Under the pieces are notes generated by a model, which saw only the letters and a list, made by a program, of their open reading frames with translations, searched no databases and had not been told where the DNA came from. 64,000 bases of DNA from Antennarius striatus. Taxonomy: Eukaryota; Chordata; Actinopteri; Lophiiformes; Antennariidae. How positions within the stretch are numbered: the first letter of the stretch is position 1; each line of letters opens with the position of its first letter. The position numbers were made by a program, and so were the translations under genes. The stretch is taken from positions 5,746,001 to 5,810,000 of the forward strand of contig NC_090783.1 in NCBI RefSeq assembly GCF_040054535.1. The letters run 5' to 3'. Positions 40,991 to 46,900 of this stretch are shown one piece after another.

Positions 40991-43900
40991 CTAATGTGGC
41001 AGCGGCACCAGGATATCCACGTAATTGATGGGGAAGAAGCCGGAGTTGCCATGCAGCATCCCCTCGTACCAGTTGTCGTCGATCTTATTGGTCAGTGTGA
41101 TGATATCTCCTTCCTTGAAGCCTAGCTCACCTTCATTCTCAGGGTCGAAATCATAGAGTGCACGGCAGCTGGGCTGGTCCATAGGGGCTGGATGAGAGAC
41201 ATGGAGCGATAAGAGAAGAAAAGGAGGGTTAGAAGATAGTTGGAGGAGACATGATGCTATAGTTAGATTGGACATATACTGTAATTGTCACAAAGCTTCT
41301 AAAAGGCTCACCTGGAGACCTGGCTGGAAGGTGGAAAGAGAAGCGGAGGAAAAACAGCAAAGATAAAGAAAAAGAGACAAATCACATGAGTAGCAGGAAA
41401 ACAAGCATGAAACATTCCGTTTTTTGTGCGTTTTGCAATAAAACATTTGCACATTTTGAGAAATAGTCTCATCTTATAGGGTTAGATAAGAAAATCAATA
41501 CAAATGTCAAAAGTTGTGTGTTTTTACTACCGCTGGCTAACATAGCTTGGCTTAAGGAGTTGAAACTGTGGGACCATGACATCCACTGCATGATATATAG
41601 TTTTTTGAATACAGTTCTAACAAGGCATAAATCTCATCTTTGATTGGCTTTAAAAAAAAATTTGCTGTTAACATGCAATTGGCTAACTGGCTAATTACCT
41701 TGTTGTTATTGGAGGAAAGAATACAAGAGTGGATCTCATCAACAGTCAGTGTCAATGTCTACATATGCAGCTCTAACAAAACCCTACCAGCACCACTAAT
41801 GCTGAACAATTAACTGGTTTTATCATTTGTATTTGCTCTGAAATGGATGACATTATATTAAATGAATGGTTACCTGTGAGACACTGATGTCCTCAGTACC
41901 TTTAAGAAACGCGTTTTAACACGTAGCATTTAAAAAGAACATTGAGTGCTATTTATTTTTTCTCTCCAGGCAGACGTGTACTGCATGTGGACGAGGTTAT
42001 GTAACTTGGGTTACCATGATCTTTAGATTATCAGTACATCTGTTAAGAGAAGGGACAAACAATACCATGTATAATGACCATAAAGCTGGTTGGGGACACA
42101 AGATTGGCTGGATGGTGGAAAGCCTTACAGATGCCGTGTGTCGATTTACATCTTAAAAACTCTGCATGAACGTACAAAAACATAGGCAAAACATAGGCAA
42201 AACAGCTTTTTTGTCTTTAATATTTTGTCTCCTTATCTAATTGGTGCACTTTCGACCCAATCATGATGTGGCACGTCATCTGTACATGCAGGACCCTGGG
42301 ATACAGGAAGACCATCACTGGTATATTACGCCTCAAAATAATTAGTGAGCTTCAGCGGTGCTGGTGACAGGTTTTGCTACCTTAGAGCGGAGACAATCTG
42401 TTTCCTCCTGTCTAATATCTTCATGCTAAACTCGTATGAATTTCTTTTTCTTTTTTTACATCCCGCTTCAAAGCGGTGATGTATTGTAATTGTCAGTGTT
42501 CGTGTGTTCGTGTGTTCGTCCGTTCGTTCGTATGTTCACCAAATATCTTCTCAAACGTTGCAGATAAAAAGATTGGAGAAGAAGCACATTACTCGGGCGT
42601 CAAAGGGGATGAATATGAGATGATGACCTTGACATTGAGAAAACTAGGTCAAGGTCAAATTTCAACTTTTGTACAGTACACTCAGGAACTGGATAAGATA
42701 GAAAGACGAGGGAGAAGGCTAGTTTGATTAAGACCATAGATCAAAGCTTTGGTCTACCTATGTACTAGTTTTGATCGAAGTTGCAGGATGTTGCAATCTC
42801 TGACAGCCTTTGTTCTTGTTCTGTCTGGGTGAATAAGCTTATTTCCCAAAATGCGAAAATATTTTATTTTAGCCATTAAAGATGAAGAATTTGATATAAA
42901 ATAAGTGGCCAAAAAGAAACCAGGGGTTAGACAGAAAAAAGCACAGCAGACAAAAATACAGACACAAGTATACTTCCACAAAAGTCCATTGAAATCAAAG
43001 TAAAAAGAGTGATAGAGGGATTCATAATCTCTTCCTCAGACACTCTAGCTCACCTGGAGATCTTGCTGCGAAAGGAAAAGGAGAGAACAAAGGTGAACAA
43101 AAAGCAGAAGTCTTCATGTTTAACATTTTGTGGGTGAATAACTGAAGAATGAATAGATGAGTACTGAAGATGAGTTGATGGAAAAAACACGTGGCAATGA
43201 GAAACACGAGTTAGACAAATGTGGAATAAAGCAGCAGATGGAAACAGGAGGATAAAGCAGATCCACAAGACAAAACAGCAAATGCTCCACCGCTGGTTAA
43301 GGTTTTCATTGTTCATCTGCAGTCTTTGTGCAGTGAGCGGATGTCACTTGTTGTTCTGTGGTTTGCTTGTGACATTTGAGTAGAGCAGTTTTCTCATATG
43401 AAACTGACAAATGAAAGGAAAACTGTATGAAAAAATGAGAATGAAGAAGTGATAGAGGTTATTTTGCATCTTTCTGGAGATTCACTTATGCCTCACCTGG
43501 AGACCTTGCTGCAAAGAGGAGACAACGTGAGGGAGGGGAAGGAAGTGGTAAAAGTGAACGTTAATATAAATGAATGAGTATTGTTGAAGAGTTCAATTCA
43601 AGACGGAGACATATAGTGACAGATAAGTTTGACCTGGCTCACCTGGAGACCTTGCCCCTGGAGGATGAACAAACATCATAAGGAAAGACAGAGGAATCGT
43701 ATTAATTAGTTCAGGAGGGATGGAAAATCTGTTCAGTTCAGGTAAAAAAGGAAAAGGAGCTGAGAAAAAGACAGATTAGCAAAGTAAAAACTGTAAATCC
43801 TCAAATACGAGTATTTTTTTTATTCTGGGAGAACCCTTGCAACACTCTTACAAGTTAAGCCTATCATGTGTATGATGGATTTATTTGAGTTTTGTATTTC

Positions 43901-46900
43901 CTATTGTGTCTGTCAGTTACATTATGTTTGAATTTTTTTTACATATCCTATCATATTTTACGTGAAGCCTTCCGTCCTCAGATTGGCTCCAATTTCTATT
44001 AATGATTTGTAATTTAAGGCCTTTGCTGTTCCTGCAAATGAAACCCACTCGATACGAGGATCGAAACCCTCTATCTGTCTTGGAGGGACTTTTATAATTT
44101 GTAGTTAAAGAAAAAAACTGACTAGAATGCAATTGTGGAGAATATCGTTCAATCCTTTATTATGTACATCACATTTTTCTCTCCTTGGTTTTTGTTTGTT
44201 GGAAAAGATCCAGTATTGAGTGTTCGGTATTGGCAGTTCTTTGAGAATTTACAGCAACAAAGAAAGAGGACTTTTAATTGAAAAAAGATCATTGATAAAT
44301 ACAAAGAAGCTATTCATGTTGCTGCAATCTATTGTTCTTTGCATCTCTTGACACGGGAGGGTCCCACGATGCAAAGTACCATGACTAGGATCTGAGTGAT
44401 GCGGCCGCTGTGCCGTGTCTCACCTGGAGATCGAGCGCTGTGGATGCCTCCATTGTGGTTCTCGCTGATGGAGAAGTCAAGAGACGTTCGTGGTTTGGGA
44501 GTGTATTCTTTACGCGGTTTGTTTGAAGCATCTCTTATTCTGCAAAGTGGACGAGACAGAGTCCCTCAGTGCCCAAACAAAAAGCTTTCTTCGGGTTATT
44601 GTAAACACAGCCGACATGAGGGCTAACCGTTCTTCAATCTTGCTGGAGAGCTGTGTGAGGATCTCAGCAGCACGGCTGTGATACTCCATCTGAGCCTGGA
44701 CCAGCGCAGCGAGCTGGCTCACCTGTTCAATCTGTGAATGATAGCCAAAGTCTACTGTTAGACACTATGACAGCTGGTGTACATCTCCAACCAAACAACT
44801 TTACCACAGGATCACATATAAGCCCCTTTGAGGGCTTCTGATGGTGCCTTAGTAGATTAAATGGTAGATGCTTTTTCTGAAATCATAAAAAAAGTTTAAA
44901 AAGCTATTTGAAATTCTACGATTGGATAAACTCTAAACAACTGAGGTCTATCTATCTATCTATCTATCTATCTATCTATCTATCTATCTATCTATCTATC
45001 TATCTATCTATCTATCTATCTATCTATCTATCTATCTATCTATCTATCTATCTATCTATCTATCTATCTATCTATCTATCTATCTATCTATCTATCAAAG
45101 GTTGACAGGCGCACAACTATGAGAAAATCCGAACTTTGAGAAAATTAACAATCTAAAGTTCCTCGAATATCGAAAAACACCTCTCCAGCACAACAGCAGG
45201 TTTTGAGAAAAACATTAAACAATTTTTGAGTTATGCCCTTGCAACTCTTATATGAGAGAAATCTCACACTGACACACTGAGCATAAATTGAACTGGTTAC
45301 TATGGAAATACAAAAAAAAATTCAATAGACAAAAATCACCAATTGGTAAAAGCCACTGCAGCAATTAAATAAAATATTTAAAAAATCTTTTGAGTTTTGT
45401 TCCGGAAGCAAACATGACAAACAGACACATCCCACTCCTACTTCCCAATCGTGAATATTTGGGGACTGATAGAAAAAAAAAGTTAATAAAAAAAGTCTTG
45501 AAGAAATGATTCAATGAAAATTTCCTCACATCACTTTCCAACAGGTTGAACATGCTCTGTTCAGCGATCTCCTTTGAGTCGTCAAATTTCTCTAGGGCTT
45601 GTTTGAGCTCATCTTCTGTCACTTTCCCCTGGCGTTTCTTCTTATAATCAAAGTCCAGACGGCGACCCTCCATTTTCTTCAGGTGATGCTGCAGGAGAAA
45701 ACCGTAAATCTGAATCTGTGACAGAGTGCGTCTTTTTTAATTGAGTTTTTGGTTTGTTCTTTCTGTGCATGTACCTGAATCTCCCTCAGATCTTTTTCAT
45801 GGAGGTTCTGCAGTGGATCAATGAAGTTCTGCTTAACCTCCATATCCAGAGCATCCTTAACTTCCCCAAGTTCACGCATGGCCTCCCCAGCATCAATCAG
45901 GGCAACACCTGGAAACATTCAGACAGGTTTAGACACTAAAATGGAACAGATGACTGTAGTCAAGACAGAAATTTCTATTTAAAGATTATTTTACTGTCTT
46001 CACTTCACTAAAAACAAAACAAACCTTTGGTATCTCATCTGGAAAATAGGCTCATGCATTTTTCATAACATTGACACTGTATCTTCAGATATTAAATTGT
46101 GCCACTTGTCTGTCTGCGAGAACCCGCTGCAGCTCACCGAAGTTTGACTCTTCTCCAAGCTCCCTGCCAAATCTCTGCATGGACTCTCCCAGGATGGCCT
46201 CGGTCTGCGTGTAGCCTGGGCCCTTCTCCTGCCCCCGCATACGGGACATGGAGTTCATCATGCTCATCTTAGCTCTGGTGGCTGTGAAGGCAAAACACTA
46301 ATGAGACAAAATAAAAACTGAACGAAAACGAGTTTTTCAATATGTGATCTGACGATATAACAATGCATTGGATCAAATATGATTGCAGTATAACATAAGG
46401 AATTATTTAATCTCAATGTATGAGCTTTGACATGCTTATGAGCATTCACAACACTGACATTCTTCCCTGAACATCCTGCTCTGACTGTAAGCCTCTCTCC
46501 ATATCCATCTAGCATTTCTTCTCTCCCTGACAAGCTGCTGCACTCGATTATTGCCAAGCAGAAGATGTCATCGATGGATTAATTGTACTTAATTGATTAA
46601 ATCAAATTAAATCAGCTCCTGAAACATCTTGTGATTCATTTTCTTAATACATGATGGCCCAAACAGTCAGATTGCTTCTTAAATATCAGCACATTGCTGT
46701 GTTGCTTCCCCTGAAGCTTAAAGAGATATTCTACAGAATGTGTGATGTAAGCTAGAGGTAATACTTAAATATAATCCATATGAGTGGATATCTAGTTTAT
46801 TTGAAGATGTTTTTATTCATCTTGTTTTTTTCTTTACTAATGTTAATATTACTCTTGGGGGATAAACATGAATCATGTCACCTGGGTTTGGCTGCAGGTA

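Follow-up and report, generated by a model that had tools for sequence, protein, structure and literature searches.

Can splicing determine not merely whether a protein carries a short motif, but how many copies of it? The question is raised by the last intron of an endophilin gene on the minus strand of a 64,000-nucleotide stretch of Antennarius striatus DNA (NCBI RefSeq assembly GCF_040054535.1, contig NC_090783.1, positions 5,746,001 to 5,810,000), which is referred to here as the window and in which all coordinates are given unless stated otherwise. Between the exon encoding the end of the linker and the exon encoding the SH3 domain, this intron contains four very short sequences, u1 to u4 in the order of transcription, each bounded by an acceptor and a donor of its own and each coding for the tetrapeptide with which the linker exon ends. 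We propose, with moderate confidence, that the four units and the terminus of the linker exon are all homologous, that the units are genuine microexons, and that splicing sets the length of the linker in steps, a phosphorylation ladder built by Cdk5 and then GSK3 being the effect that we favour.

Four units in the last intron of an endophilin gene

The host is an intact-looking gene of the SH3GL2 type. Exons 2 to 9 (47582 to 40991), when joined, form one open frame that encodes 331 residues and a stop if the units are left out. The joined protein contains the Pfam domains BAR (E value 5.2e-70) and SH3_1 (2.7e-15), and the closest solved structures are the BAR domain of SH3GL2 (3.7e-118) and the SH3 domain of endophilin-A1 (9e-37). 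With its BAR domain and a C-terminal SH3 domain nearest SH3GL2, the gene looks like fish sh3gl2, encoding endophilin A1. Exon 1 was not located by a motif search within the window.

A first-pass annotation of this DNA had claimed that the linker exon (44539-44424) ends with Ala-Arg-Ser-Pro and a phase-1 G, that four short units of 15, 12, 12 and 12 nt follow it, each with an acceptor and a gtgag donor and all in one phase, and that the SH3 exon opens with Ala-Pro-Met. Reading of the minus strand bears this out: the linker exon terminus is GCTCGATCTCCAG followed by gtgag, all four units are in the matching phase, and the SH3 exon starts as described at 41187. The same annotation had assigned Ala-Arg-Ser-Pro to every unit, which is correct for u2, u3 and u4, while the 15-nt u1 encodes Gly-Ala-Arg-Ser-Pro. 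The 12-nt cores of u1 and u2 are the same, and those of u3 and u4 are each one change away. That each unit brings one Ser-Pro and one Arg was also verified from the DNA sequence.

At the sequence level the units have the properties of microexons: they fall below the limit of 27-30 nt, possess their own acceptor and donor, and are in frame. They divide the host intron into sub-introns of 766, 134, 431, 1730 and 124 nt (by coordinate subtraction), and sub-introns of at least 124 nt together with the common phase permit combinatorial joining. The prediction that any subset would preserve the frame proved correct for all 16 combinations, each of which reaches the normal stop, yielding 8 distinct proteins with 1-5 Ser-Pro repeats. 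Since the peptides of u2, u3 and u4 are identical, splicing can set their number, so that the 16 mRNAs specify only these 8 proteins. We are highly confident, from the letters of the DNA, that u1 to u4 are protein-coding microexons.

A chance origin of the units was ruled out by three kinds of search. The 15-base sequence AGRTCTCCAGGTGAG, with at most two mismatches allowed, has five matches in the 64 kb, which are the four units and the end of the linker exon; in 100 shuffles the mean was 0.21 and the maximum 2. Scanning by acceptor-to-donor distance (3-27 nt) returned candidates on the minus strand only, 11 in all, with the units among the strongest and the others overlapping exon 2, exon 7 or u4 or lying far off. 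No candidate of 12 or 15 nt matched the strength of the units in 300 dinucleotide shuffles of the host intron, and for weaker candidates, whatever their length, the mean per shuffle was 0.09 (maximum 1). Finally, an exact search with the 17 bases that span unit and donor, CMAGRTCTCCAGGTGAG, gave four matches in 548,383,777 bases of the genome, all on the sense strand and all in the array as u1 to u4, and none genome-wide for the reversed control; simple repeats were skipped, and these genome counts are lower bounds.

Confinement of the exact pattern to the four units also rules out a dispersed repeat or transposable element, within the same limit on simple repeats. When one mismatch was allowed, 25 matches were found genome-wide, the four units and 21 elsewhere, against 7 for the reversed control. 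The 21 lie on other contigs, with no pair of them within 400 kb. CAG/GTGAG is itself a donor consensus, and the excess of 21 over 7 may come from ordinary exon ends. As expected, no relatives of the array were present in the prokaryote and virus contig sets.

Copies within the array and among paralogues

The five copies, that is, the linker exon end and the four units, differ only synonymously (Ala as GCT, GCA or GCC; Arg as CGA, AGG or AGA), the variable positions being the third base of the Ala codon and the first and third bases of the Arg codon. For 4-5 changes, counted by eye and with equal rates assumed, the chance of an all-synonymous outcome is about 0.002-0.009. The flanks were compared in 25 pairs over about 100-120 nt, and no homology was convincing after correction, most pairs being at background. 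In the best pairs, 4, 7, 19 and 21 of 300 mononucleotide shuffles scored equally high, the first two values belonging to the upstream flanks of u3 and the linker exon and to the downstream flanks of u2 and u3, respectively; the upstream flanks owe their superficial similarity to pyrimidine tracts.

Retention of the cores amid drifted introns suggests selection, provided that the duplications took in flanking intron; if only some 20 bases were copied, the flanks carry no age information. Origin by repeated duplication of an exon end together with its donor is plausible. Because core and donor are common to the copies and the flanks have no convincing homology, neither how much was duplicated nor which copy was the parent can be recovered.

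The genome contains five SH3 exons of the endophilin-A type, on C8 (the window gene), C23, C7, C1 and C18, with 68-100% identity; the next exon reaches at most 52%. The nearest paralogue, on C23 (C23:5200800-5210750), is a second sh3gl2-like copy with 89% identity in the SH3 exon. Its linker exon ends HSAKSPGRSP (near 8990 of the C23 stretch) and is followed by a 0.7 kb intron and then by APMDQP. One extra Ser-Pro unit is thus hard-coded in the exon (AKSPGRSP), like the window gene with one included unit. The last intron of the C23 gene contains no unit: a relic scan of its 710 nt with up to 5 mismatches gave no match, and the same scan of the window intron gave four, which are the units.

An array common to the paralogues was ruled out for four stretches of 9,951 bases, where a search at lowered thresholds for in-frame candidates of 3-33 nt found none that was unit-like. 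Those returned are situated at exon edges or elsewhere than in the linker introns; one of them, of 18 nt, is the terminus of the linker exon on C1. No Ser-Pro repeat is present in the linkers of the C7, C1 and C18 genes, whose open frames were read by eye. The two sh3gl2-like copies would constitute a natural experiment within one genome, with 1-5 Ser-Pro units set by splicing in the window gene versus a fixed two in its paralogue.

Putative use of the units and its possible effect

Inclusion of n units would place n Ala-Arg-Ser-Pro blocks directly before the SH3 domain, lengthening the disordered linker between the BAR and SH3 domains by four residues per unit (five for u1). Each unit would also contribute one positive charge, through its Arg, and one Ser-Pro site adjacent to the SH3 domain. 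The calculated net charge of the linker is +2 without units and +6 with all four. Without units the linker ends RSPAPMDQ, with a single Ser-Pro there and no full Cdk site. With every joined unit, the Ser-Pro that comes before it would become a complete Cdk site, SPxR, except at the Ser before u1; u2, u3 and u4 each add one SPAR site and a Ser spaced 4 from the next. Serines at i and i+4 (5 before u1) would have the spacing required by GSK3. For this kinase the consensus SX3or4S(P) is reported, with CDK5 among the priming kinases (PMC5954166), so that spacings of 4 and 5 are both allowed. SPxR and SxxxSP are found in the linker of the C23 gene and in that of the window gene with units; they are missing from the window gene without units and from the C7, C1 and C18 genes, the exon ends of these last three having been judged by eye.

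In its most far-reaching form, the effect that we favour would make a Cdk5-primed GSK3beta ladder as long as the count of spliced-in units dictates, and ladder length would set the threshold for turning off endophilin-driven endocytosis; the C23 copy would be the fixed one-rung form. The endophilin SH3 domain is reported to bind GSK3beta, and Cdk5-primed substrates of this kinase, dynamin (778 then 774) and CRMP4 (522 then 518, 514 and 509), to control fast endophilin-mediated endocytosis (PMC8065113). We infer that endophilin itself may be phosphorylated here, and that linker charge or phosphorylation may be the selected trait. That a (Ser-Pro-Ala-Arg)n track whose length is set by splicing serves as such a ladder is a tentative suggestion, to which we give a low probability.

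Selection might instead act only on linker length, Arg charge or disorder, through membrane or partner avidity or through condensates, an explanation that overlaps ours in everything apart from the favoured effect. The 4-5 residues and single charge gained with each unit are in keeping with it, as are linker swaps, which alter endophilin-A function according to a review that also places modification sites in the linker and ascribes several splice variants to every endophilin A (PMC12457278). Ser-Pro, however, is retained in all five copies and in both units of the C23 gene, although other residues would be tolerated under an effect of length or charge alone, and we regard selection for length or charge alone as possible rather than likely.

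A second explanation accepts the microexons as real but has all four spliced into every transcript, so that the linker would have five units throughout. The strength of the splice sites speaks for it: the unit donors score 11.0-11.2, with 10.9 for the linker exon, versus 4.7-7.0 for the donors, all GT, of exons 3-7 (exon 2, with its GC donor, being left out), and the unit acceptors score 8.9-14.4, with 6.8-12.3 for the eight other acceptors of the gene. Very short exons need strong sites, and the scores of the units fit this need. Exons of 12 nt, however, are poorly recognised unless specially helped, the C23 copy holds just one extra unit, and it is less easy to see why one peptide should be kept in several exons if their use did not vary. 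Constitutive inclusion seems to us unlikely, and we lean towards a number of units that varies among transcripts, with inclusion depending on tissue or stage and probably neural.

Roles outside the coding sequence are very improbable. As recursive-splicing points or decoy donors, the units would provide a non-coding AG/GTGAG for intron removal or retention, and the CCAG/GTGAG at each unit end does resemble an AG/GT ratchet point; yet what comes after the acceptor CAG is GGGCA, CAAGG, CAAGA or CCAGG, never the GT donor that a recursive site requires, the host intron is just 3.2 kb long, and variation confined to synonymous positions is expected from coding use, not from a decoy. Decayed or never-used duplicates that are left unspliced would agree with an array seen in DNA, but the eight splice sites and four frames are all intact despite flanks mostly at background level, and we give this explanation scarcely any weight.

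Several observations weigh against regulated inclusion and the ladder that we favour. The array is known from DNA alone, in the genome of one species, and the splice-site scores come from hand-entered matrices. Strong unit sites do not discriminate between constitutive and regulated use, and inclusion could be constitutive. An internal AG inside every unit might yield an 8-nt, frame-breaking exon; as an acceptor it scores 10.5 in u4 (41319-41312) and at most 6.2 in u1 to u3. There is no consistent motif of the SRRM3/4 type, the UGC element lying at -5 relative to the acceptor in u2, -41 in u3 and -36 in u4 and being absent within 60 nt upstream of u1. The constitutive acceptor of the linker exon likewise ends TTTGCAG, so the UGC of u2 is not discriminating. 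Among zebrafish microexons, 42 of 95 are reported to have both UGC and UC elements and 44 a partial layout (PMC12626420); with partial layouts this common, the units may still belong to the programme although UGC lies close by in u2 only. As for the ladder, u1 alone places a Ser at a spacing of 5 from that of the linker exon and adds neither SPxR nor SxxxSP, S/T-x-x-x-S is a loose motif, and phosphorylation by Cdk5 and GSK3beta is reported, in the account cited above, for dynamin and, in connection with endophilin A2, for CRMP4 rather than for endophilin itself (PMC8065113).

Two further features of the host intron may be recorded. The Rbfox motif TGCATG occurs in it only at 42290 and 41677, the nearer one 354 nt before u4. 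Eleven inverted pairs, judged by eye and with no chance comparison, are also present, one having an arm 31 nt past u3.

Gene context and known systems

The exons, the host intron and the units are listed in Table 1.

Table 1. Parts of the endophilin gene and of its microexon array, in window coordinates
Feature	Positions	Strand	Description
BAR-domain exons 2-7 overall	44628..47582	-	one open frame
Exon 2	47582-47514	-	
Exon 3	46954-46882	-	
Exon 4	46281-46138	-	
Exon 5	45908-45775	-	
Exon 6	45688-45530	-	
Exon 7	44731-44628	-	
Linker exon	44424..44539	-	116 nt; ends Ala-Arg-Ser-Pro plus phase-1 G; donor CAG/gtgaga
Host intron (last intron)	41188..44423	-	3236 nt
Candidate microexon u1	43643..43657	-	15 nt, GGGCAAGGTCTCCAG; Gly-Ala-Arg-Ser-Pro; acceptor 8.9, donor 11.0
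Candidate microexon u2	43497..43508	-	12 nt, CAAGGTCTCCAG; Ala-Arg-Ser-Pro; acceptor 9.6 (ends TTTGCAG), donor 11.2
Candidate microexon u3	43054..43065	-	12 nt, CAAGATCTCCAG; Ala-Arg-Ser-Pro; acceptor 14.4, donor 11.0
Candidate microexon u4	41312..41323	-	12 nt, CCAGGTCTCCAG; Ala-Arg-Ser-Pro; acceptor 12.7, donor 11.0
Last coding exon, SH3 domain	40991..41187	-	starts (G)CC CCT ATG = Ala-Pro-Met

Exon 2 apparently uses a GC donor (47514-47513, minus strand; GGAAAAG/GCAAGA), and the frame that results from joining it to exon 3 fits the family. Elsewhere in the window, a long open frame at 19771-20895 (minus strand) includes a forkhead-like stretch and is presumably an intronless foxe1-like gene. 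Two minus-strand segments resemble parts of mobile elements: a fragment like a Tc1/mariner-type transposase (22727-23050) and an open frame like the end of a LINE-type element (52546-53013). Long simple repeats of four-base units, which translate as Leu-Ser-Ile-Tyr repeats, occupy 13611-13892 and 35832-36161.

To our knowledge, neural microexons described so far are mostly single or non-homologous, whereas here four homologous ones would lie within one intron. In other respects the units resemble the vertebrate neural microexons associated with SRRM3 and SRRM4, being within the 3-27 nt range, in frame, preceded by pyrimidine-rich acceptors, and located in the gene of a synaptic protein beside an interaction domain; neither sh3gl nor endophilin is mentioned in the main texts of the two reports concerned (PMC12626424, PMC12626420). 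The first-pass annotation had stated that no such array was described in SH3GL2, and no description was found in the literature searched, which consisted mainly of open main texts, although gene models in databases may hold predicted isoforms. No paper in that literature joins a microexon with SH3GL2, and the phrase "duplicated microexons" occurs in none of the matches listed. Of the microexon papers that name endophilin or sh3gl, one concerns an exon of SH3GLB1 and another SH3GL3 as a binding partner. The former is an alternative, SRRM4-dependent neural exon of endophilin B1, a member of a related family of BAR-SH3 proteins; the gene is a different one, and as far as the source describes the exon, it has no repeated unit (PMC13387927).

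Arrangements of several small exons have been reported in other settings. In RPS24, three successive microexons between two exons give several isoforms; in contrast with the present array, the gene encodes a ribosomal protein, and its abstract gives no repeated peptide (PMC11162997). Schistosome micro-exon genes likewise contain many short symmetric exons (6-36 bp), with apparent splice variants and, in one family, internal duplication, but microexons make up about 80% of their coding region and the products are secreted or surface proteins, whereas here a single array is carried by a conserved endocytic protein (PMC5825161). Tandem duplicated exon substitution events share with the units the placement of homologous exons side by side; there the exons are mutually exclusive, while here exons of 12-15 nt could be joined in any number, so that number and not identity would vary (PMC9741552).

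Exons this short easily escape annotation and read mapping, and the array illustrates the multiplication of a microexon within one intron. If the reading proposed here is true, a cell could choose the copy number of a short motif in a synaptic protein: where single neural microexons toggle an interface, an interchangeable set of homologous ones would count copies of a motif.

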